64,000 bases of DNA, from the NCBI GenBank assembly GCA_900315485.1, contig OMZI01000006.1:1-64000 (forward strand), written 5' to 3'. The notes under the pieces are model-generated. The model was not told the origin of the DNA, ran no database searches, and was given only the letters and a program-made list of their open reading frames with translations. Position numbers and translations under genes: made by a program. The DNA comes from an uncultured Eubacteriales bacterium (GTDB lineage Bacteria; Bacillota; Clostridia; Peptostreptococcales; Anaerovoracaceae). Below, in pieces: positions 133 to 11,585 of this stretch (its first letter is position 1; every line of letters starts with the position of its first letter).

Positions 133-662
133 AGTCAGGTTCCGGAGGTAACGACTCGACCGGCAGCAATGATTCAGATGATGAGGATGTTGTTGAGGAG
201 AATGCTTTCTCTACGCCGGGCAACGCTACTCTCGGAGATATGATCAAGAGCTCGGGATCCAAGGACTTCTATACGATTCGAACGGATAACGACAATACGT
301 TTTATCTGGTCATCGATCACTCCGGGAATATGGACAACGTTTACATGCTGTCTGCCATCGATGAAAACGATCTGAAGGATTTCCTGGAAGATGACGATGA
401 AAGCAGCGGAAGTCTTGTCCTGCCGGAGACAGTTCAGCCGGAGACTACGGAGAACGTACCGGAGACTACTGAAAAGGAGCAAAAGCAGGACCGCATTCCG
501 GGGATCATATCGCTCGTGCTTCTTGTGGCAGCAGGTATTGCCGGAGTAGTTCTGTTCAGGAGATATCGGAGAAACGCAGAGGAACCGGAGGATGACTATT
601 CGGAAAACATGGAAGGCGATGGACTTCCGACTGTAAATGAGGACGAAGAGTTCCTTGAGTAA
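45..662 (+). CDS. CD1107/DUF4366-family mobile element protein, 5' end replaced
   Basis: This is a membrane-anchored protein of unknown function that is standard cargo of clostridial conjugative elements. Family features start near residue 30: a Ser/Gly/Asp-rich linker, the core with FYTIRTDNDNTFYLVIDHSG and NVYMLSAIDENDL, a Glu/Thr/Pro-rich stalk, one membrane helix (about residues 150-170, IISLVLLVAAGIAGVVLF), and an acidic tail. Family members normally begin with a signal peptide. Here the first ~29 codons are antisense to a P-type ATPase fragment, the start would be a GTG at 45 without a ribosome binding site, and no signal peptide is evident. The genuine gene therefore begins around 130 and is probably 5'-truncated and not properly expressed. 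Confidence 0.7.
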   Translation: MLRHSIYPISFIVAALTVSPSFLSTGSDSQSGSGGNDSTGSNDSDDEDVVEENAFSTPGNATLGDMIKSSGSKDFYTIRTDNDNTFYLVIDHSGNMDNVYMLSAIDENDLKDFLEDDDESSGSLVLPETVQPETTENVPETTEKEQKQDRIPGIISLVLLVAAGIAGVVLFRRYRRNAEEPEDDYSENMEGDGLPTVNEDEEFLE

Positions 663-702
663 TGGACAGCCTGCTTTTGCAGGAGTAAGGAGAAAAACTG
701 AA

Positions 703-1707
703 ATGATGGATTTTAGTGAGTTTACAGAATATGTGAAGACACATATAACGGAGCATTTGCCGCCGGAGTATGGAGCGGCAGATATCCGGCTGGATGAAGT
801 CCAGAAGATGAATGAGCGCTATACGGGGCTGACCGTAAGGCTGGAAGACAAGGTATCTGCGCCTGTCGTCAATATGGAAATGTTTTATCAGCAGTACCAG
901 GACGACAGGCCGATCCCGGATGTAATGAAGGATATGGCAGAGATTGTGCCTGCATCGATCGATATCGATGTCATGAAGGATTACGAGCAGGTGAAGGACA
1001 AGCTGTTTATCAGACTGAATTCTCCGGAAGGCCATGACCAGATCATGGCAGACAGCCCGCACCGCATGGAAGCAGATCTCTTGATGACCTACCACATATA
1101 TATCCCGGACAGGGATGGAGACGGAGGCTTTATGTCAGCGCGGATAACCAATGACATGATGAAGGAGTTCGGCATCAGTCAGGAGCAGCTACATCAGGAT
1201 GCGATCGCAAGTACTGAGCAGATCTTTCAACCGAAGATCCAATCCATGATGGAGGCACTTACCGGCATTCCGGAAGAAGACCCACAGATGATGGTCGTGA
1301 CCAATGGAATTGGTTCACTCGGCGCCGGAGCTCTTTTCTGCAGCGGAGTGATGGACAAAGCTGCAGAGCATATGAAGGGCAATTACTTCATCCTACCATC
1401 ATCGATCCATGAAACGCTGGTCGTTCCGGACAACGGAAGCTTTGACCGGGCGGATCTGGAGAAGATGGTGAAGGAAGCCAATCGCACGGTTGTCGATCCG
1501 CAGGATCGACTGTCCGATTCCGTTTATCACTACGACAGCAAAGACCGCGTCTTTGAGAGAGCGGATGTCTACGAGAAGCGAACACAGGAGAAATCTGCAG
1601 AGAGAGGATCGATACTCGGAAAGTTGCAGGACAAGAAAGAGCAGATCGAACGCACCGCTCCGGGCATCAGTCAGAATAAGCAGCGTCAGGCTGGACTGGC
1701 GATCTAA
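703..1707 (+). CDS. DUF5688 family protein
   Basis: A cytoplasmic protein of about 334 residues resembling the DUF5688 family of clostridial integrative elements; its biochemical role is unknown. I chose ATG 703 because AAGGAG at 687-692 is well placed; an upstream in-frame start would run into the preceding gene. The body has no signal peptide or membrane helix. The last ~32 residues begin with SILGKLQDKKEQ, a C-terminal peptide that recurs in three other, unrelated proteins of this element. It lies directly downstream of the DUF4366 gene and upstream of the topoisomerase remnant, in the same direction. Confidence 0.65.
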   Translation: MMDFSEFTEYVKTHITEHLPPEYGAADIRLDEVQKMNERYTGLTVRLEDKVSAPVVNMEMFYQQYQDDRPIPDVMKDMAEIVPASIDIDVMKDYEQVKDKLFIRLNSPEGHDQIMADSPHRMEADLLMTYHIYIPDRDGDGGFMSARITNDMMKEFGISQEQLHQDAIASTEQIFQPKIQSMMEALTGIPEEDPQMMVVTNGIGSLGAGALFCSGVMDKAAEHMKGNYFILPSSIHETLVVPDNGSFDRADLEKMVKEANRTVVDPQDRLSDSVYHYDSKDRVFERADVYEKRTQEKSAERGSILGKLQDKKEQIERTAPGISQNKQRQAGLAI

Positions 1708-1722
1708 GGAGGGAGAGAGACC

Positions 1723-1872
1723 ATGACGAAGTATGAAGCACATGGAGGCAGAGAGACTGCCAGGAAGCAGCAGGAGCGTATCCGCTTCTACGAAAGCCGC
1801 GTGAAGGAAATGGACGCTGAACGCAGGAAGAAAGGCGAGAGTAAAGCCAGAAAGGAGCAGGCACAGAAATGA
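1723..1872 (+). CDS. small basic hypothetical protein (49 aa)
   Basis: A short gene with a strong ribosome binding site (AAGGAGGGAG, about 1707-1716) 6-7 bases before its ATG. Its stop codon overlaps the start of the next gene as ATGA (1869-1872). The product is highly charged, rich in Arg, Lys and Glu, and probably one long helix (RKQQERIRFYESRVKEMDAE). Small charged proteins of this type often sit before topB in such elements. I do not recognise a named family. The overlap and binding site argue that it is translated. Confidence 0.55.
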   Translation: MTKYEAHGGRETARKQQERIRFYESRVKEMDAERRKKGESKARKEQAQK

Positions 1873-2387
1873 GCAAAAGACCACTGATCATAGCCGAAAA
1901 ACCCAGCGTAGCGAAATCCCTTGCTAATGTCATCGGAGCCTATCAGGAGAAGAACGGCTACCTTGAAGGCAGGGAATGCATCGTCAGCTGGTGCCTCGGA
2001 CACCTGGCAGAATACGCCTTCCCAGAGAGCTATGACGAGAAGTATGCGGAATGGAATTTCGAAGACCTGCCGATCATCCCGGATCCGTGGAGACTGGCTG
2101 TGACAAAGGATAAAAAGAAGCAGTATACAGCGCTGAAGGAGCTGATGTGCAGGCAGGACATCGATTATGTGATCAACGCCTGCGATGCCGGACGTGAGGG
2201 AGAGCTGATCTTCCGAAGGGTATATCAGCTGGCGAAGTGCAAGCTCCCTGTGATGAGACTCTGGATCTCATCCATGGAGGATGAAGCGATAAGGGAAGGA
2301 GACATCGGCTCTATACAGCAGCACACCGATCACTTCGCCGCAGGATGCTGTCAATGTCATGGGGGATCTTATGCGCGGGCTGGATAG
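1869..2387 (+). pseudogene. topB: DNA topoisomerase III, N-terminal Toprim fragment
   Basis: The first ~140 codons encode the Toprim domain of a type IA topoisomerase of the TopB class: IIAEKPSVAKSLA at the N-terminus, CLGHLAEY, and the metal-binding DAGREGELIFRRVY. The segment ends with LWISSMEDEAIREG, after which a full enzyme would continue for several hundred residues including the catalytic tyrosine. Instead, from about 2,295 the DNA encodes a RadC-like protein in another frame, and the topB frame runs into about 28 meaningless residues. The gene has lost its strand-passage domains to a deletion and cannot make an active topoisomerase. Confidence 0.85.
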
Positions 2388-2943
2388 AGAGACCGTTTTT
2401 ATCATCAACATGGACAATAAGATGAGAGCCATAAATTACACGGCAGTCGCCCAGGGCGGCATCAATGCTTCCATGGTTCCAGTCGCGAACTGCTTCAAGG
2501 CGGCGCTGCTCTCGGCTAACGCTGCATGCGTTGCGCTATTACATAACCATCCGAGCGGAGATGCCACACCGTCGCAGGAAGATTTTGATGTAACAAAACG
2601 CATGGTTCAGGCGGGCAAATTGCTCGACATTCCCGTCATCGACCACATCATAATCGGCGCTTATCACGGTGAGCAGTTCAGCTTCCGGGAGAACTATCCG
2701 GACATGTTTTACGCTGAGCCGGATCTTTCGGTATTTCCGGAGATCGATACGAGCAAAGGCTGGCACGTGGCAGAAGAAAAGCCAGTATATGAAGCAGGGA
2801 ACAATAAAAGAAATCAAAACAATCAGGATGTGAAGGATCCTGCGAAGAAATCTGTAATCGAAAGACTATCCGAGAAGAAAGAGCAGGCAGCAGGAGTGGA
2901 TAGGGCTGCGCCTGTACATACAAAAAATGAATATTCGCTATAA
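2359..2943 (+). CDS. radC: RadC-like JAB/MPN-domain protein, 5' end affected by deletion
   Basis: A RadC-family protein with the JAMM metalloprotease-type motif HNHPSGDATPSQED at about residues 60-75. RadC-like genes are common cargo of conjugative elements; despite the name, no DNA repair role is firmly established. Recognisable RadC sequence begins upstream of the first ATG (TSALYSSTPITSPQDAVNV in the same frame from about 2300), and an in-frame TAA at 2290 lies just before it. The normal N-terminus is therefore gone and translation would start at ATG 2359 or depend on coupling to the topB remnant. The C-terminus carries the shared element peptide SVIERLSEKKEQ, 30 residues from the end. Confidence 0.75.
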   Translation: MGDLMRGLDRETVFIINMDNKMRAINYTAVAQGGINASMVPVANCFKAALLSANAACVALLHNHPSGDATPSQEDFDVTKRMVQAGKLLDIPVIDHIIIGAYHGEQFSFRENYPDMFYAEPDLSVFPEIDTSKGWHVAEEKPVYEAGNNKRNQNNQDVKDPAKKSVIERLSEKKEQAAGVDRAAPVHTKNEYSL

Positions 2944-2955
2944 CAGCATACAGCG

Positions 2956-2985
2956 CAGCCTCGTCAGACCGGCGAGGCTGATTTT
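2956..2985 (+). terminator. hairpin before the ardC-like gene
   Basis: CAGCCTCG (2956-2963) pairs perfectly with CGAGGCTG (2973-2980), followed by ATTTT. It lies just after the RadC-like stop and just before the GGAGGTG binding site of the next gene. It could be a weak terminator or attenuator; the U-run is short. Confidence 0.4.
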
Positions 2986-3000
2986 GGAGGTGAATACAGT

Positions 3001-4764
3001 ATGGCTGAAGAAGCTAGAAATAAATATCAGGAATGGGAGCAAAGGCGCAAAGAAAAGCTGGAAGAGATCACCGGCAGGATTGAGGAAGGAATGGCGCGCA
3101 TCATGGATTCTTCCGAGTTCAAAAACTACCTTTCGGTAATGGCGTCTTTCTACAATTATTCAGCTCGCAACACGCTCCTTATATTCATGCAGAAACCGGA
3201 TGCGACGCTTTGCGCGTCGTACACAGACTGGCAGCGCAAGTACAACCGCCAGGTCAATAAGGGTGAGAAGGGCATCCAGATCATTGCCCCGGCGCCATAC
3301 AAAATGAAGGTGGAAAGAGATCAGGTGGATACTGCGACAGGGCAGCCTGTTCTGGATGCTGACGGCAATCCGGTGAAAGCTGAAAAGGAGATTACAGTAC
3401 CGAGGTTCAAGGTCGTGAGTACATTTGACCTCAGCCAGACCAGCGGTGAGCCGTTGCCGGAGCTTGGCATCAAAGAACTGACAGCGGACGTGGAACACTA
3501 TGAGATGTTCATGGAGGCGATAAAGCGTATCTCACCTGTACCGATCCGCTTTGATGAGATCGAAGGCGGCGCAAAAGGTTATTACGATCCAGTCAAGAAG
3601 GAGATCGTTATCCAGAACGGCATGCCGCAGGAACAGACAATGAAAACATGCGTACACGAGCTAACGCACAGCCTGCTCCATGACAAAGATACTCTGAAAC
3701 TCAATGGAGAAGAGCTGAAGAAGGACCGTATGACCATAGAGATCGAAGCCGAGGCATGCGCTTTTGTCTGCCTTTCTCACTTTGGCTTTGAGGATGTCGG
3801 CGACTACAGCTTCCCGTATCTCACTTCATGGAGCAGCGGCAGGGATATGAAGGAGCTGCACGCATCGCTATCTACGATACAGCAGACATCATCACAGATC
3901 ATCTCGGGCATCGAAAAGGGCATGAGAGAACAGATGCTGGAACAGGATGTGGATCGCTTTGAGATCTACCAAATCCCAATCGGGAGCGAAAACCGTGACA
4001 AGAAGTTCGTCTCGATGGACGAGGTCACGAAGACTTACGGGGAGATCAGCCGCGACGATTACGCTCTGGTTTACACCTCTCCGCTGAAGGACGGTGAGAC
4101 GCTGGACAGTCTCTACGAGAAGTTCAATATCGACCCTCCGATGGATTATGCCGGTCACTCCATGTCCGTCAGCGATGTTGTCGTGCTTCATCAGAATCAT
4201 GAGGACAAGGCCTACTACGTGGACAGCATGGGATTCAAAGAGATTCCGTTTGCGCAGGGAGAACCATATGTGCCCGGCTGGGATAAGGATCAGCAGAGCA
4301 AGTCAGTACAGTATGTGGCCGGGATCGCAACACCGGGCGGATCAAAGGCGGCTATAGCAACTGAGAAGGGGTATTTTACCATCCAGCAGGATGGAAAAGA
4401 TTATAATTACACCTTTTATGACAAGGACTTCAAAGAGTACCACAGCGGTTCGTTGGTGGATTCAGGAATGAATCTGACGGAGGCGATAAAACATGTCCTG
4501 TGGCATTCCGGAGAGACGATAAGCAACGAGGCTGTTGTATACGGTGACATTGCAAGCAAGATCGATGAGATGCACAAAGCTTCGGAAGTAAGGTCGATAG
4601 ATGCTCCTTCGGCAGAAAGGATCGCGGATCAGCTACCGCAGCAGGGTAGACGGGAATCTATTCTAAGGTCACTCAGAGACAAGCAACAGAAGGTGAACGC
4701 AGAATTCGGATTTGACCGGCACGGACATAAGATCGATCAGAAACGAGGTGAGCAGACGTTATGA
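3001..4764 (+). CDS. ArdC-like antirestriction/zincin protein with YodL domain
   Basis: A polyvalent element protein. Residues about 1-100 resemble the ArdC N-terminal ssDNA-binding domain (YSARNTLLIFMQKPDAT, then YTDWQRKYNRQV). Residues about 165-270 form a zincin metallopeptidase domain with HELTHSLLHD and a downstream EAEACAFV glutamate. Residues about 325-420 form a YodL-type domain (YQIPIG, LYEKFNIDPP, GHSMSVSDVVVLH, YYVDSMGF). ArdC-type proteins are known to protect incoming conjugative DNA from restriction, and some are transferred with it. ATG 3001 is set by GGAGGTG at 2987-2993. The C-terminus carries SILRSLRDKQQK, the peptide shared with other element proteins. The stop overlaps the next start (ATGA). 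Confidence 0.8.
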   Translation: MAEEARNKYQEWEQRRKEKLEEITGRIEEGMARIMDSSEFKNYLSVMASFYNYSARNTLLIFMQKPDATLCASYTDWQRKYNRQVNKGEKGIQIIAPAPYKMKVERDQVDTATGQPVLDADGNPVKAEKEITVPRFKVVSTFDLSQTSGEPLPELGIKELTADVEHYEMFMEAIKRISPVPIRFDEIEGGAKGYYDPVKKEIVIQNGMPQEQTMKTCVHELTHSLLHDKDTLKLNGEELKKDRMTIEIEAEACAFVCLSHFGFEDVGDYSFPYLTSWSSGRDMKELHASLSTIQQTSSQIISGIEKGMREQMLEQDVDRFEIYQIPIGSENRDKKFVSMDEVTKTYGEISRDDYALVYTSPLKDGETLDSLYEKFNIDPPMDYAGHSMSVSDVVVLHQNHEDKAYYVDSMGFKEIPFAQGEPYVPGWDKDQQSKSVQYVAGIATPGGSKAAIATEKGYFTIQQDGKDYNYTFYDKDFKEYHSGSLVDSGMNLTEAIKHVLWHSGETISNEAVVYGDIASKIDEMHKASEVRSIDAPSAERIADQLPQQGRRESILRSLRDKQQKVNAEFGFDRHGHKIDQKRGEQTL

Positions 4765-5900
4765 GAAAGAATGTGAGAAATATACAAACGGCTGACAGCA
4801 GGATGGTTGTAGGGGCAGCATTTGCAGCAATAAGCCTGATTGTCATGGCATTGCTCGTGTTTACATGGATGCAGCCAGCTTTTGCTGCAGAAGGGGACGG
4901 AGCATCTGGTACCTCAGTAACGGTCACCATTAAAGCTGGCGAGCACGGTGTTGTTAACGAGAAAACCGGAGAGACCACTGAGACCGTATCCCAAGGGGAA
5001 GGTCTGAGGCTCGCAATCAGCTCTGAAGAAGGATATGTGATTGGCAGAGTTCTTTTGAATGATGAGCCGCTTGCAGCAAGCGACCTGAAAGAGTTGCTTG
5101 GTGAATCTGCAGGAGAGCTTGATCTGGAGGAACTGGACGACGATCTTTCAGTAGAAATCATTTTCATGACCACGTCGGAGTTTGAGATCCAGAAAGAGTA
5201 TGGGCAGGTAGCTGATGACCTAAACGGTGATGATACAGGGACGGATGATTCCCAACAGACATCTGATGATAGTGGAGAAGGCACGGATGAAATTTCAGGA
5301 GATACTTCTTCTGACACGAACACAGATCCATCTGATGGTACCGTGACAGATCCCGGAGATGACACGGAGGCGGATTTTACCGGCGATGAGTCTTCAGGTG
5401 ACGAAGACACTACGGGTGCAGACTCAGAATCTGTTGATGGGGACGATTCTTCTGAAGATTTGGACAGTCTCATAGATTCCACAGAAGCAGAAGATGGCGA
5501 CGATACAGATGACAGTATCAACTGGGGTACGACCGAAGATTCGGAGGACTCATCAGGTGATACAGGTACCACGGCAGTCGATGACACGGAAGTGACGACT
5601 GGAGAAGACGACTCAGCTTATGATGACAGCGAATCGGCTGATACGATAGATCAGGAATCGGATACCGAGAGTGAAACTAAAGTCAGCAGTCAGGCCGCTT
5701 ATATAGATACAGCGAAAGACGATTCTGACAGCACTGATGATGGAAAGGGAGATTATTACGATACACCGAAGACCGGGGATGAAAGGAACCCATGGATTTG
5801 GCTGGTGGTGCTGATCAGCGGACTTGTCATGATCGCTGTTTCTACCGGAATTCATATACGGAGTGCCATCCGTAAGCGAGACGGGAGGTGGAGCTCATGA
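4761..5900 (+). CDS. acidic cell-surface protein with sortase-type C-terminus
   Basis: A secreted, wall-attached protein of unknown ligand. A hydrophobic export segment covers about residues 15-42 and ends at AFAAEG, a plausible signal peptidase site. A small folded domain follows (about 45-145, including VTIKAGEHGVVNEKTGET), then about 170 residues very rich in Asp, Ser, Thr, Glu and Gly. The C-terminus has TPKTGD, a variant of the LPxTG sorting motif, then a hydrophobic helix (WIWLVVLISGLVMIAV) and a basic tail. Surface proteins on conjugative elements often aid donor-recipient contact; that role is inferred. Four-base overlaps link it to the genes on both sides. Confidence 0.75.
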   Translation: MRKNVRNIQTADSRMVVGAAFAAISLIVMALLVFTWMQPAFAAEGDGASGTSVTVTIKAGEHGVVNEKTGETTETVSQGEGLRLAISSEEGYVIGRVLLNDEPLAASDLKELLGESAGELDLEELDDDLSVEIIFMTTSEFEIQKEYGQVADDLNGDDTGTDDSQQTSDDSGEGTDEISGDTSSDTNTDPSDGTVTDPGDDTEADFTGDESSGDEDTTGADSESVDGDDSSEDLDSLIDSTEAEDGDDTDDSINWGTTEDSEDSSGDTGTTAVDDTEVTTGEDDSAYDDSESADTIDQESDTESETKVSSQAAYIDTAKDDSDSTDDGKGDYYDTPKTGDERNPWIWLVVLISGLVMIAVSTGIHIRSAIRKRDGRWSS

Positions 5901-7084
5901 AGACTTCAGGAACGCAGCTAAATGCTAAAGCCCGATGTATATCCTTTGTGCTGATCATGATGCTGATTATGGCACTCACACTGAACATGGGAACGTATGA
6001 TGCATATGCGCTCTCAGTGCCGAAGATCACCATCGATGCAGCAAGCCTGAAAGCAGACAGCGCAGATAACATCGTGATTACAGGTACAGTATCTCGGAGC
6101 AAGGGACAGGCAATCAACCTCCTGGCTGCAGACGGTGAAACAGTCCTTGCTCAGACGACTGCGGGGACCGGTGACGGATCATCTACATTTAAGTTATCAG
6201 TTCCTGCAAAATATGCGAATGATCACATGAGCGGTACCGGCTCGTTCAGTGTATATGTTCAGAGTCAAGCAGTGAAAGGATTGGCTGCATCAAAAAAAGC
6301 TGAGGCCAATGTTGTAGTCAGGATCCAGAAATCACAGACGATCACTGCTCCGTCAAGTATCACTCTGACCAACCTCAGGACATCGGATGTGATCAAGGCG
6401 AAGGCGTCGTCCGGGCTGAAACTGACTTATAAGAGCAGTAATTCACAGGTTGTTACCGTTAAGAGCAACGGTGAAATCAAGCGGAAGAAGAACGGCAAGG
6501 CAACGATCACTATCACGCAGGCGGGAAACAATAATTACAGCCCTGCTACCAAGACTGTTCAGGTCACATGCCGTAAAAGTACAAAGCAGGAGCAAATCGA
6601 TGGCGCTGTGGCCTGGGCAATCAAGATCGCGAATGACAACAGCTTCACCTATGGTACCGGTAGCGGGGCACATCATAACGGATGCTATTTCTGCGGGACG
6701 AACTACGGCCCGAGGAAATACATGAAGCCGAGCAAGAAATACAGGAAGACCTATTGTTGCAATCCGTTCGTACATGCAGCCTATGCACACGGAGCACAGC
6801 ATCCAAAAATGCTCAAATACTGCAGGAAGGCGTCTGCAATTGACATGACTAAGGCATCCTACTATAGATTTGGCTGCTGGAAGTGCGTTGGCAAACCAGC
6901 ATACAAGAATCTGCAAAAGGGAGATGTGCTTGTAAAGTCGACGCACGTAGCCATGTATATAGGAAAGGGCAAGATGGTAGAAGCCTCCGGTGGCAACTGG
7001 TCAGCTTCGTCCATCGCAGTCAAGAAGATGAGTAAGTCCCGGTATAACGGATTCACATATGTCATGCGCTACACCGGATACTGA
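5897..7084 (+). CDS. secreted NlpC/P60-like cell-wall hydrolase with Ig-like region
   Basis: An exported protein, probably a peptidoglycan hydrolase opening the wall for conjugation. Residues about 12-38 are a signal peptide. Residues about 40-225 form two beta-rich regions, the second bacterial Ig-like (QTITAPSSITLTNL, YKSSNSQVVTVKSNGEI). The C-terminal ~170 residues look like a cysteine peptidase fold: a Cys-Asn pair in YCCNPFVHAAYAHG and a His in STHVAMYIGKGKMVEA. The domain is unusually cysteine-rich (CYFCG, FGCWKCVG), which may mean disulfides or a metal site. ATG 5897 follows GGAGGTGGAG and overlaps the previous stop. Confidence 0.7.
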   Translation: MKTSGTQLNAKARCISFVLIMMLIMALTLNMGTYDAYALSVPKITIDAASLKADSADNIVITGTVSRSKGQAINLLAADGETVLAQTTAGTGDGSSTFKLSVPAKYANDHMSGTGSFSVYVQSQAVKGLAASKKAEANVVVRIQKSQTITAPSSITLTNLRTSDVIKAKASSGLKLTYKSSNSQVVTVKSNGEIKRKKNGKATITITQAGNNNYSPATKTVQVTCRKSTKQEQIDGAVAWAIKIANDNSFTYGTGSGAHHNGCYFCGTNYGPRKYMKPSKKYRKTYCCNPFVHAAYAHGAQHPKMLKYCRKASAIDMTKASYYRFGCWKCVGKPAYKNLQKGDVLVKSTHVAMYIGKGKMVEASGGNWSASSIAVKKMSKSRYNGFTYVMRYTGY

Positions 7085-7110
7085 TGACAAGAGAGAGGAG
7101 AAAAATCGAG

Positions 7111-7392
7111 ATGAGAATAGACTTCACAGAAGATGAGATGCTGATTATGGCGATGTATAAGGCAGATAGCAAGGACGCTAGTCTGGATCTGATGGAGGAA
7201 GCTTTGTTCGCTCTGGAACAGGATCCGGCAATGGCGGAGCTCATTGGGGAGACGATCAACAAGCTGACACAGCTGACGGACGAGGAATACCTTCAGGTGG
7301 ACTTCAGTGATTACGATCACCAGTTGGACAGCATAATGGATGAAGCCGATGAGCCAACCATTGAGTTGAATGCGACAGATGAGGGTGCGTGA
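7111..7392 (+). CDS. transposon-transfer assisting protein-like
   Basis: A small acidic protein of about 93 residues, similar in length and pattern to the transposon-transfer assisting family of Tn916/Tn1549-like elements: an N-terminal FTEDEMLIMAMY, a middle helix, and LTQLTDEEYLQVDF near the end. The molecular role of the family is not known. I prefer ATG 7111 over an upstream ATG at 7084, because GAGAGGAG at 7093-7100 is at the right distance and the conserved sequence starts there. Its stop overlaps the next gene by one base. Confidence 0.55.
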   Translation: MRIDFTEDEMLIMAMYKADSKDASLDLMEEALFALEQDPAMAELIGETINKLTQLTDEEYLQVDFSDYDHQLDSIMDEADEPTIELNATDEGA

Positions 7393-8282
7393 TGATTGCA
7401 GATGGCTTTGAGCTGTACAAGTTGAAAAATGATGGTCAGCTTCAAGAGCTCCAGTTCAGACCATACAGATATCTACGCGAGCACGGAATCGCTGCTCGGA
7501 TAGAAAGCTACGATCTCGTGCTTCGAGGAGAACTGAAGGATCATGAAAATGTAAAGATGCTCAAAGAACGATTGAGTAAAGAACTGCCTTCGGCTGAGCA
7601 TGCTCGCAGCTGTGGTTCTGAAATGGATGCTGCTCATGATCAGGCCAGCTTTTGCATAAATGTTGGCGACGTTATTGCTATTACAAGGAAAGGCCTTACC
7701 ACAGCTTACTACGTTGATCCTACACGGCTCATTCTGCTTCCGGACTTCTTTCATCAGCCTGCATCCGGCGCATTGATCACAATTGACACTGATAATTTCC
7801 CCTTAGACGGACGAAAAGGCAGCTGGATGACCATTGATACCTTGAGAATCGATGGCAAAAACCTGTTTCTGATGCAGAGCCAGGATTATGGCAAAGATGC
7901 CCCATTTGTCATCGTCGATGAAGCCGGAAAGGAATTTGCTGCAGATAAGAATGGCTTTACCGAGGATGTGATAGAGCAAATTCGGAGTTCTCTGAAAGAG
8001 CTAGAAGCAAGACAGACCGCCTCAACGATAGATGCTCCGGATAAGAAACCAAAGCTCGAAGTCTGGCAGCAATACTTTGAGAACGGAGAATATCTGCGAG
8101 CCGCAGAGATCACCGAAGAACAGAATTACAACATGATCGACGGCACAATGAATAACCGAGCACCGCGACGGTCTGTTCTGGAGCGACTGCAGGAAAAACA
8201 GACAGAAGTGAAGGGTATATCTGCTCCTGTGCCTTTTCCGGAAATCAATCTGGAAAATGATAACGAGCTTATTCGAAAATAA
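7392..8282 (+). CDS. YodL / DUF4316 domain protein
   Basis: A cytoplasmic polyvalent-type protein of about 296 residues. The N-terminus resembles a degenerate YodL domain (FELYKLKNDGQLQELQF, YDLVLRGEL). The middle contains a conserved element block (MTIDTLRIDGKNLFLMQSQDYG, then PFVIVDEAGKEFAA). The C-terminus matches DUF4316 (KLEVWQQYFENGEYLRAAE, NYNMIDGTMNNR). The function of these domains is unknown. It ends with the shared element peptide, here SVLERLQEKQTE, 36 residues from the C-terminus. It is the last gene of the leftward cargo operon; a hairpin follows at 8415. Confidence 0.65.
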   Translation: MIADGFELYKLKNDGQLQELQFRPYRYLREHGIAARIESYDLVLRGELKDHENVKMLKERLSKELPSAEHARSCGSEMDAAHDQASFCINVGDVIAITRKGLTTAYYVDPTRLILLPDFFHQPASGALITIDTDNFPLDGRKGSWMTIDTLRIDGKNLFLMQSQDYGKDAPFVIVDEAGKEFAADKNGFTEDVIEQIRSSLKELEARQTASTIDAPDKKPKLEVWQQYFENGEYLRAAEITEEQNYNMIDGTMNNRAPRRSVLERLQEKQTEVKGISAPVPFPEINLENDNELIRK

Positions 8283-9724: not shown

Positions 9725-11221
9725 TCATAAGAGCTCCTGTGCTTTTGTTTTATCTCGTGCCTGTTCTGGTGTCCCATCCAGAATGGCGTGGACATTTTTA
9801 CAGACGATGTCCAACTCCCGCAGGTATTTTTTCAGCTGCTTCTGATTGTTCCGCTGAGTGCGGTTTGCCTGATGCAGAAAGTCGCTCCAATAATCGTCTG
9901 TAATATCAGGTGCTATGATTTGTTCATTTGTATGGTGAATAGAATCGTCGAATCTGTCTATTACAGCTTCAGTCATTTTGCGTTCCTGCTCCAATTCCCA
10001 AAGTGTATTGTACCCATGTTCCTGCACATAGCAAATGGTCTTTGCCATTGTCTGTAGATTTGAAAGCTTGACCTTTCGGGCATAGGCCCTGCTCGCCTGA
10101 GCCTTAGCACACGACTGCAGATCAACGACCAGCTTTAGTTTTGTGCGAAAGCGCAGAACTGCAGCAAAGTCTTTTGTGTAGTCATAGGACGGATCATATT
10201 CCGGTGCCGTCTGAACAGACTTGGAGATTCCATGATCGGCTTTTTTATCAATACTCTCATTTCCAGGTAGCTGTTCGCCTCGGACACGTCCGGATTTGGC
10301 ATTACCTTCAAAAACTGGGATCAGAAAGTCTTCAGTATAATCATTACCGAGGTTTCTGCCGGTAATATATTTGCTGCGATCCGGATGCAGATAGCTGTAT
10401 CTGCCACGGCTGATTTTGAATCGTATACCATAATGCTTCTCCAGCTCTGCGCCGAATTCTTCCGGTGTGTGGGCATAGGAAGATACGTCTCTAATGGCAT
10501 CGCGAAGGATTTGCTTTTCTGTCTGAAAACGGGATTTCGCAGCGGTCGGTGTAGTTGCACTTTCAACAGCATTAATGACAACGCCCTCAATCTTCTTTCG
10601 ATACTCCCGATCAGATATCTTATCAGCAGCAGGGGAGAGAAGATCCACCTGATGAAGATGCTCACGCTCACAAATATCCATCAGAGTTTGCTGCATATGA
10701 GAAAGCAGCTTATCCGTGAGATGATGTTTGAAACCGGCACGGCTGTCGCAGGGACGTTCAGTGAAGTCGGTGGGTTCTATATCATCCTTCCTCACGCTGT
10801 TCAGAATAATATGCACATGTATATTACCGCTCTCATTGTGACCGTCGGTATGAGTACAAACCAAAGCTTGATGTCCAGCAAAATACTTCCGGGCAAATTC
10901 CATTCCGATCTCCTGCGCTTTGGCGCCCATGAGGCCGCGTTCTGTTTTATCCAAAGGATCAAAACTAATGATGTAGTGATGGGACTTGATCTCACGATCA
11001 CTACAGTTTTTGCAAAACGCTTTATTGACCTGATCACACTCCGCTGAGAATGTGAGTGGGTCACAGTTTAGTCCCTCAAGATAGATCTCATCACGGAGCA
11101 TCATGTGCCCATGATCATCGAGCAAAGGCTTCTGCGTGAATTCATCATGCTGGAATACCAGATACTCCAGTGCCTTGCTGTAATTCCTGTTCTTATTTGC
11201 GATGTGTTTCAGTATTGCCAT
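9725..11221 (-). CDS. MobA/VirD2-type relaxase
   Basis: The nicking enzyme for transfer of this element. The N-terminal domain has the early tyrosine region (NKNRNYSKALEYLVFQHDE) and the HxxxHxH metal site in HTDGHNESGNIHVHIILNSV at about residues 125-145. The C-terminal half is basic and helical with coiled-coil character. I chose ATG 11221 because AGGTGA lies about seven bases upstream; ten more codons are open to 11251. The start overlaps the 3' end of mobC, as usual for such operons. The two genes diverge from the recombinase operon, with the probable oriT between. Confidence 0.85.
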   Translation of the reverse strand: MAILKHIANKNRNYSKALEYLVFQHDEFTQKPLLDDHGHMMLRDEIYLEGLNCDPLTFSAECDQVNKAFCKNCSDREIKSHHYIISFDPLDKTERGLMGAKAQEIGMEFARKYFAGHQALVCTHTDGHNESGNIHVHIILNSVRKDDIEPTDFTERPCDSRAGFKHHLTDKLLSHMQQTLMDICEREHLHQVDLLSPAADKISDREYRKKIEGVVINAVESATTPTAAKSRFQTEKQILRDAIRDVSSYAHTPEEFGAELEKHYGIRFKISRGRYSYLHPDRSKYITGRNLGNDYTEDFLIPVFEGNAKSGRVRGEQLPGNESIDKKADHGISKSVQTAPEYDPSYDYTKDFAAVLRFRTKLKLVVDLQSCAKAQASRAYARKVKLSNLQTMAKTICYVQEHGYNTLWELEQERKMTEAVIDRFDDSIHHTNEQIIAPDITDDYWSDFLHQANRTQRNNQKQLKKYLRELDIVCKNVHAILDGTPEQARDKTKAQELL

Positions 11222-11585
11222 TATGTTCACCTGCCATTCTAAGGGCGACATTTCTTATCTCCATGATCCCGGATACCGCTTCGTTGATATCCTCCAGGAT
11301 CGACTTTGACTGAAGACCGCCTGTATTGAAGTAACGTGCAATCTGATTCAGATTATTTCCAATCGCACTTAACTCTCTCGTCAGTTTCTGAATCTCAGGA
11401 AAGTCTGCGACGATCCGATATTCTGTATTGATGCTGCCGTGAACTGCCTGTTGGCGAATGTATTCCGCCATAGACAGCCCTGCCTTTTCAGCATTTCTTA
11501 TCACTATGCTGTGCTGTGTCTCGCTTAACCGCACAGGGATCACGTGCAGCTTCGTTTGTGATTCGTTCTTCTTTGGTCTTGCCAT
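11193..11585 (-). CDS. mobC: MobC-like relaxosome accessory protein
   Basis: A 130-residue DNA-binding accessory protein expected to bind oriT and help the relaxase. The N-terminal half has a ribbon-helix-helix pattern (KLHVIPVRLSETQHSIVIRNAEKAGLSMAEYIRQQAV). The C-terminal half contains the family-typical LSAIGNNLNQIARYFN and a terminal helix. It overlaps the relaxase gene by about 29 bases and is first in the leftward mobilisation operon. Confidence 0.85.
   Translation of the reverse strand: MARPKKNESQTKLHVIPVRLSETQHSIVIRNAEKAGLSMAEYIRQQAVHGSINTEYRIVADFPEIQKLTRELSAIGNNLNQIARYFNTGGLQSKSILEDINEAVSGIMEIRNVALRMAGEHNGNTETHRK

Follow-up and report, generated by a model that had tools for sequence, protein, structure and literature searches.

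The window analysed here, a stretch of 64,000 nucleotides from an uncultured Eubacteriales bacterium (assembly GCA_900315485.1, contig OMZI01000006.1), contains part of a conjugative element of the Tn1549 type in which four proteins with different domain architectures end in the same short peptide, and it raises the question of what such a shared C-terminal tail is for. We consider it probable (about 0.6) that the tail is an element-specific C-terminal signal by which its bearers would be recruited to, and translocated through, the VirD4/PcfB coupling complex. Such a recruitment signal fits the evidence because of the pattern of carriers, the identity of the non-carriers (channel ATPases and topoisomerase) and the existence of element-specific versions.

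The whole window was screened with the regular expression S[IV][IL]xxLx[DE]K[KQ], written from the four tails. Of its 1145 six-frame segments with a length of 30 aa or more, 4 matched, only the four proteins named below, all on the forward strand. A DUF5688 protein (637..1707, 356 aa; PF18941, E 2.2e-70, residues 27-301, with the tail outside the Pfam domain) ends in SILGKLQDKKEQ...GLAI (1609..1704); a RadC-like protein (2359..2943, 194 aa; PF04002, E 7e-32), whose start is lost in the window copy and whose gene has a longer frame of 255 aa in a relative from a goat-gut Bacillota genome (G251), ends in SVIERLSEKKEQ...EYSL (2851..2940); an ArdC-N/metallopeptidase/YodL/LPD16 protein (3001..4764, 587 aa; Pfam ArdcN, metallopeptidase families, YodL and LPD16) ends in SILRSLRDKQQK...EQTL (4657..4761); and a protein with Pfam YodL, LPD18 and DUF4316 (7389..8282, 297 aa) ends with SVLERLQEKQTE... 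(8172..8279). The motif starts at 1609, 2851, 4657 and 8172 and lies 32, 30, 35 and 36 residues from the C-terminus, respectively, in agreement with a sequence-only reading of this DNA that had placed the four peptides there, 30-36 residues from the end, and Pfam upholds the domain names given in it. The same reading called the main domains unrelated, which is too strong because the third and fourth proteins share a YodL domain. Part of the tail already lies within a Pfam model, since the match of PF14195 (DUF4316) to the fourth protein (residues 234-267) ends inside the motif, which starts at residue 262; the tail as such is not DUF4316, because just this one of the four window carriers exceeds the curated cut-off of that family (47.3 bits vs a cut-off of 25). 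A profile built from the four tails found no further site in their own genome at E<=10, a search that is circular for the four and informative for the absence of others. Sharing of the peptide by selection and not by chance is supported. The amino acids agree among the four tails while the codons mostly differ (each pair has 3-7 residues in common, with the same codon at 1-4 of them), so that recent copying is not needed to explain them.

Compared across Tn1549 and its relatives, the tail has the general form [K/R]PS[IV]xxxL, followed by about 20 mostly basic residues and by [D/E/G][L/M]E[L/V] or xER at the very end, and the relatives show the window motif to be one form of a wider Tn1549-family tail. 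In Tn1549 it is carried by PcfB, by an ArdA-ArdC-YodL protein and by a 314-residue protein. Conservation is highest at the serine, at the leucine five positions further on and at the tip rather than at the basic residues in themselves, and the linker has a net positive charge (K+R 32% and D+E 13%, vs a background of 13% and 14%). The tails used for training numbered 47, or 37 without near-copies, after seven rows found with the regular expression had been removed by hand as chance and motif distances of 28-42 had been kept; the counts of position, specificity and tip given below are unpruned, and profile counts on the training loci are circular.

A loose form of the motif was counted in 1003 de-duplicated open reading frames (ORFs). 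Its matches are concentrated near the end of the protein: 50 of 91 start 20-39 residues from the C-terminus (six of these were judged by eye to be chance), every other 20-residue bin up to 400 holds at most 5, and the pooled remainder is 8. The plasmid loci L063-L070 had been found with carrier proteins, and the loose expression was written after their tails had been seen, which makes the 37 loci L071-L107, seeded with topoisomerase III and VirB4 (both without the tail), the cleaner test. In these, the loose form occurs at -20..-45 in 30 of 483 ORFs vs none of 363 chromosomal ORFs taken as controls from 400 kb of four genomes (Fisher p 4e-8); adding the window and the plasmid loci gives 45 of 787. 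The tip xE[LVRI] is an independent feature because it is not part of the loose expression, and it ends 21 of the 30 matching ORFs vs 22 of the 453 others in L071-L107 (p 3e-18), or 28/45 vs 33/742 with the window and plasmid loci included, and 4/363 in the chromosomal controls. The positional histogram and the chromosomal controls rule out chance or composition as the origin of the tail, and the possibility that it would be equally common in proteins outside conjugative elements, which the sequence-only reading had named as fatal to its idea, was not borne out, with none among the 363 control ORFs.

A profile of the tail run over 398 genomes of the phylum gave 59 matches in 34 genomes at E<=0.3, with clusters on single contigs (six on G320:C6, five on G337:C21 and five on G393:C18). 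In 20 regions around some of these matches the tail is C-terminal in 25 of 26 matched proteins, an extreme location also seen for C-terminal translocation signals of type IV secretion systems, and a VirD4, VirB4, VirB6, topoisomerase or relaxase homolog is encoded in 15 of the 20. Other approaches were set aside: a profile of the four window tails over 148 related genomes gave mostly weak, scattered matches (32 genomes at E<=1) and is not used as evidence, TTRAP as a seed reached too few genomes (6/398) and the G337 family too few for a sample (3 genomes).

The carriers span more than 20 Pfam domain families, many of which co-occur in one protein: RadC, DUF5688, ArdcN, YodL, LPD16, LPD18 and DUF4316 in the window; DUF3801, ArdA, LPD25, DUF3846, DUF3849, MutS_I and LPD1 in relatives; and, in addition, LPD34, SNF2-rel_dom with Eco57I, DarA_C, MobA_MobL, DUF6674, HepT-like, DUF3848 and Mob_Pre. 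They are often encoded by adjacent genes, and the spacing is constant in very different proteins. Conversely, the motif was found in none of 78 machine components (21 VirD4, 31 VirB4 and 26 topoisomerase III homologs), one of which ends in the tip, yet the VirD4 partner PcfB carries it. ArdC-N, YodL, LPD and methylase/SNF2 domains of Tn1549-like elements have been described among the polyvalent proteins, early effectors of invading elements, in the available part of PMC5512222, which contains no mention of a common tail. The idea of a C-terminal transfer signal draws indirect support from the carriers, many of which belong to types whose delivery alongside the DNA has been predicted in the literature. 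The HepT-like carrier, encoded in a conjugative element (L174, 4418-4891, minus strand), belongs to a ribonuclease family (PF01934, E 5e-16) and is a candidate for a toxin-like protein that is delivered. In the Lactococcus plasmid pBN62-65kb, a Fic family protein (L199, 27320-28246) whose gene adjoins that of a relaxase ends in DFDLEL, like the tip.

Indirect support for a C-terminal transfer signal also comes from relaxases, because some of the MOBQ and MOBV types end in the tail. In loci seeded with VirB4, one MOBQ relaxase has the tail (L100; PF03389, E 1e-88) and another a P-I variant of it (L085; NF041496, E 5.8e-72), and a MOBV relaxase (L187; PF01076, 26.7 bits, cut-off 25.5) bears the tail, as does a 43% identical relative in L065. 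The latter is encoded in an insert of about 10 kb (L065, 425-13065) that splits the topoisomerase III gene of a Tn1549-like element; the insert relaxase bears the host element's type of tail, and no VirB4 or VirD4 homolog was found within the insert. Among 15 further relaxase or relaxase-like ORFs, chosen by similarity and not at random (14 of 34 listed matches plus L108), the S-I/S-V form is present in 4 and the P-I variant in 2, while 9 terminate in E[LVRI]. Two of these nine are relaxases of small plasmids of Clostridioides difficile and Paeniclostridium sordellii (L118 and L120; plasmids of 7.6 and 9.8 kb), whose last residues, SEMEL and TGLEL, show the tip without the helix motif. A MobA/MobL-like ORF of 365 residues in the window's genome (G000:C41:62551-63000, L137) ends in RHRTMER, also like the tip.

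The DUF3801 (PcfB) genes lie directly upstream of VirD4 in annotated records. Across the 398 genomes, 24 closed ORFs matching DUF3801 were compared (one below the cut-off, L236, was included and L235 was excluded): 12 have S[IVLM]xxx[LIM] at -18..-48, vs 32 of the 363 controls, 7 more have it at -52/-53, 2 show the P-I form, and 12 end in E[LVRI]. In distant plasmids the motif is altered jointly in non-homologous proteins of several elements; pEfmO_03 has its own common form in PcfB, SLTKKLDKLEDKAQEINQQRE, and ArdC, SLSDQLEEFDDKAKSLNEQRE, pNP40 likewise in PcfB and ArdC (SKTMQERIANAKAK and SMTMKERIDKAKTK), and weaker joint changes are seen in Enterococcus avium and pCF10. Permutation gave counts that are not exact probabilities because related elements are not independent. 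In 12 hand-chosen elements, none of 20000 permutations reached the observed sum of similarities between the tail of PcfB and those of hand-chosen passengers from its own element (7/20000 without pEfmO_03), vs 13001/20000 for a control stretch upstream of the tail. With 48 hand-chosen carriers (18 elements, 20 family labels) and shuffling confined to each family, the last 45 residues gave 2/3000 vs 853/3000 for the upstream control, and the last 14 residues 29/3000; in these sets L068, L079 and L090 combine records from elements that are nearly identical, and the proteins taken from G446 are encoded on different contigs. Tails of non-homologous proteins hence match better within than between elements, the window's element type excepted.

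These observations bear on the main rival explanation, in which the tail would be a donor-side docking peptide that gathers PcfB, relaxases and accessory proteins on a coupling protein or relaxosome scaffold while its bearers stay in the donor. A docking peptide for one common partner was also the alternative given in the sequence-only reading. What makes it the main rival is that PcfB, whose gene immediately precedes that of VirD4, has the tail itself, which fits docking at least as well as transfer; co-variation within elements would suit any element-encoded partner. However, ArdA, ArdC, DarA_C and methylase/SNF2 carriers are argued to be useful in the recipient (PMC5512222, in the part available), and proteins that are translocated usually get there by docking on the coupling protein too. 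We regard confinement to the donor as unlikely, although it is the strongest of the rivals.

Considerably less probable is a nucleic-acid-binding tail that would hold proteins on the transferred strand. The excess of lysine and arginine in the linker and the number of DNA-related carriers agree with it, but the conserved columns are the serine, the leucine and the tip rather than the basic residues, and DUF5688, HepT-like and PcfB proteins are not obviously DNA-binding. A similarly improbable explanation is a degron, or a tag for a chaperone or protease, by which a host reader of the tip would limit the level or lifetime of the element's proteins. A short, unstructured tag at the C-terminus that closes with fixed residues is indeed typical of degrons. 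However, a host reader is not expected to yield element-specific versions, a helix motif 30 residues upstream and the presence of the tail on relaxases and PcfB would be left unexplained, and the tail is absent from the chromosomal control ORFs. Finally, spread of the tail by recombination between neighbouring genes, or by common descent, with no present function would suit the adjacency of many carriers, the run of 12 identical bases shared by the DUF5688 and RadC window tails and a possible common ancestry of the two YodL proteins, but it is very improbable, as the conserved positions and last residues persist though the codons mostly differ and very different carriers keep the same spacing.

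Under the preferred reading, recruitment to VirD4/PcfB followed by translocation, the tail would consist of three parts: a short helix, [K/R]-P/x-S-[IV]-x-x-x-[LI], located about 28-45 residues from the end and probably N-capped by its serine, a flexible basic linker, and the C-terminal tip x-E-[LVRI]. Two AlphaFold models, made from six-sequence alignments, are of low confidence (mean predicted local distance difference test, pLDDT, of 52 and 47) and too weak for a fold search; both place a lone helix at the motif (residues 548-568 in the ArdC/YodL protein and 130-150 in the other model), with pLDDT of about 35-54 over the block, followed mostly by coil, and at this confidence they speak neither for nor against a free tail, as opposed to one inside a folded domain, which the sequence-only reading had named as a refutation. 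A bearer would dock on the coupling complex of VirD4 (CD1115 family), which belongs to the type IV secretion apparatus of Tn1549-type elements. The docking site would most likely be one that the VirD4 partner PcfB/DUF3801, itself a tail bearer, either shares or presents. Once docked, proteins would be unfolded and would pass into the recipient together with the relaxase-DNA complex or alongside it, and ArdA/ArdC-type, DarA-like, methylase/SNF2, RadC and HepT-like proteins may there protect and establish the incoming element. Some elements have the tail on their own MOBQ relaxases, and mobilizable elements that bear it on MOBV or MOBQ relaxases could use the machine of a resident element.

Taken further, the tail might be a modular, element-specific boarding tag, read by VirD4/PcfB, with which anti-defence, establishment and even toxin-like proteins (HepT-like, or the tip-bearing Fic protein) are injected and which mobilizable elements copy onto unrelated relaxases, a picture for which we see about even odds. 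If true, the tag would predict from sequence alone the passenger set of such elements, listing candidate passengers for a family that includes the vanB element Tn1549, and it would suggest roles, as coupling partner or passenger, for DUF3801, DUF3849, DUF4316, DUF5688, DUF6674, LPD1 and LPD34. Substrate choice in Gram-positive conjugation is poorly known, and a defined tag, about 28-45 residues long and present in element-specific versions, opens that question to direct testing, besides giving a handle on how mobilizable elements hitchhike.

Among known systems, the signals of Agrobacterium VirB/D4 substrates (VirF, VirE2) are short, C-terminal and positively charged, as is the tail described here. 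We know of no S[IV]xxxL motif or xE[LVRI] tip in them. Their positive charge figures in the title of a reference listed in the available part of PMC8406263. In Bartonella and other alphaproteobacteria, the BID domain with its basic tail is, like the present tail, a C-terminal signal common to relaxases, toxins and effectors, and it is proposed to bind VirD4 and in part to co-evolve with the coupling protein (PMC6509941, available in part). The BID domain is a folded unit of about 100 residues, whereas the tail of these Gram-positive elements comprises a short motif, a linker and a tip within about 28-45 residues, and Pfam scans of the carriers, which use sequence profiles only, gave no BID family; the tail would resemble the BID-plus-basic-tail signal in its way of working, without being a BID domain. 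The F plasmid also sends its relaxase, TraI (signals TSA and TSB), and, as with pED208, other plasmid proteins through one coupling protein; these TraI signals are internal and Gram-negative, whereas the tail is C-terminal and Gram-positive (PMC8406263 and PMC12624023, in the parts available). Elements of the Tn1549/pCF10 type (CD1110 VirB4, CD1115 VirD4) share both machine and gene order with the family to which the window's element belongs, and no C-terminal signal is named for them in the accessible sections of PMC12857230 and PMC6514445, the former a 2025 review that describes the Gram-positive experimental evidence as limited. The translocation signals of the Tn916 and ICEBs1 relaxases, which use a machine different from the Tn1549 type, were not yet known according to a 2022 study of hybrid integrative and conjugative elements (PMC9154091, in part). 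No description of the tail was found in open-access full text, a coverage that leaves out most subscription papers.

Several observations weigh against recruitment and translocation as the function of the tail. After de-duplication, 20 of 45 loci have no loose match; some of these are duplicates, are cut short or have variants missed by the pattern (L070, L085, L093), and the plasmid loci of Ruminococcus albus and Oscillibacter (L067, L069) gave none. Among the 26 profile-matched proteins, the sole internal match (L190, 6980-7624) lies at -195, just after a MobQ-like ORF, and may be a fused or shifted relaxase end. The window's own tails are atypical, with the off-consensus tips LAI, YSL, QTL and IRK, and profile A5 (28 rows) recovers two of the four: that of the DUF5688 protein (E 2.1e-7), itself one of the 28 rows, and that of the RadC-like protein (E 0.002), which is not a row, with no match at E<=0.3 for the ArdC/YodL and YodL/DUF4316 tails. 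The elements' own MOBP relaxases, which are the most certain of the substrates, are without the tail motif in 12 of 12 cases. A PF03389 survey of the 398 genomes gave 17 usable relaxases (L136 and L140 were excluded for broken frames), of which 4 have the tip and 3 match the bare S[IVLM]xxx[LIM], while a KPS-type tail is found in none; because of these two groups the tail is not a universal relaxase signal. PcfB, a carrier, is not known as a passenger, the DUF3801 protein of pBN62-65kb (L199) has neither motif nor tip, and of six further plasmids three (L195, L198, L199) are without a tail at the C-termini compared, save the Fic tip in L199. In the PcfB permutation the eight Tn1549-like elements alone give 379/20000, only 4 of the 12 elements have their own PcfB as the best match, and the PcfB of the window's element type ranks 8th of 12 for its own passengers. 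No DUF3801/PcfB match was found in the window's genome, which is 86% complete, and the upstream transfer genes of its element may be lost or unbinned.

As to the MOBP relaxases themselves, 5 of the 12 end in E[LVRI] vs 5 of the 363 controls (p 3e-6), one fits the bare S[IVLM]xxx[LIM], as do 32 of the 363 controls, and that of pEfmO_03 ends in a look-alike. Matching their tips by eye with passengers of the same element gave nothing clear. In the window, a MOBP-type relaxase (9725..11251, minus strand; PF03432, E 1.7e-16) lacks the helix motif and ends in AQELL; the MOBP label comes from its relatedness to the relaxase of Tn1549, which is typed as MOBP in its record.

The window is the start of a 76-kb contig (C40) and holds only the downstream half of the element because it opens at the contig start. 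A scan with the ArdC protein found one locus (the relative in L043 is 97% identical), and the goat-gut genome G251 holds an entire relative of the element, with genes for a PcfB/DUF3801-like protein, VirD4, VirB4, DUF5688, topoisomerase III, RadC, ArdC and YodL/DUF4316, and a relaxase gene on the opposite strand. This is the architecture of Tn1549-type elements (CD1115 VirD4, CD1110 VirB4, topoisomerase III, passengers and an opposite-strand relaxase), and its gene order is near that of Tn1549 as annotated in the Enterococcus plasmid pMG2200, an element that we take to be Tn1549 from its vanB cargo. In G251 the same four proteins carry the tail and a fifth, PcfB-like, ends in the variant KKSVRQRLQ...RGFER. 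The window copy is without about 1.9 kb present in G251 (blastn junction at window 2295-2299 vs C25rc 64036/65933), so that most of topoisomerase III and the RadC start are gone from it, which reflects either a decaying element or an assembly fault. What remains of topoisomerase III, intact in G251, is the Toprim part (1869..2387, plus strand; PF01751, E 3.6e-12), without the tail.

A transposon-transfer assisting protein (TTRAP; 7084..7392, plus strand; PF14203, E 1.3e-10), a marker of the element type, also lacks the tail. No RNA family reached its gathering score in the window, and NCBIfam gave a useful name for 1 of 10 proteins. Between the ArdC and NlpC/P60 genes, positions 4761-5900 encode a 379-residue protein, rich in D, S and T and with no Pfam match over cut-off, that has an apparent C-terminal membrane segment after PKTGD and a similar gene in G251.

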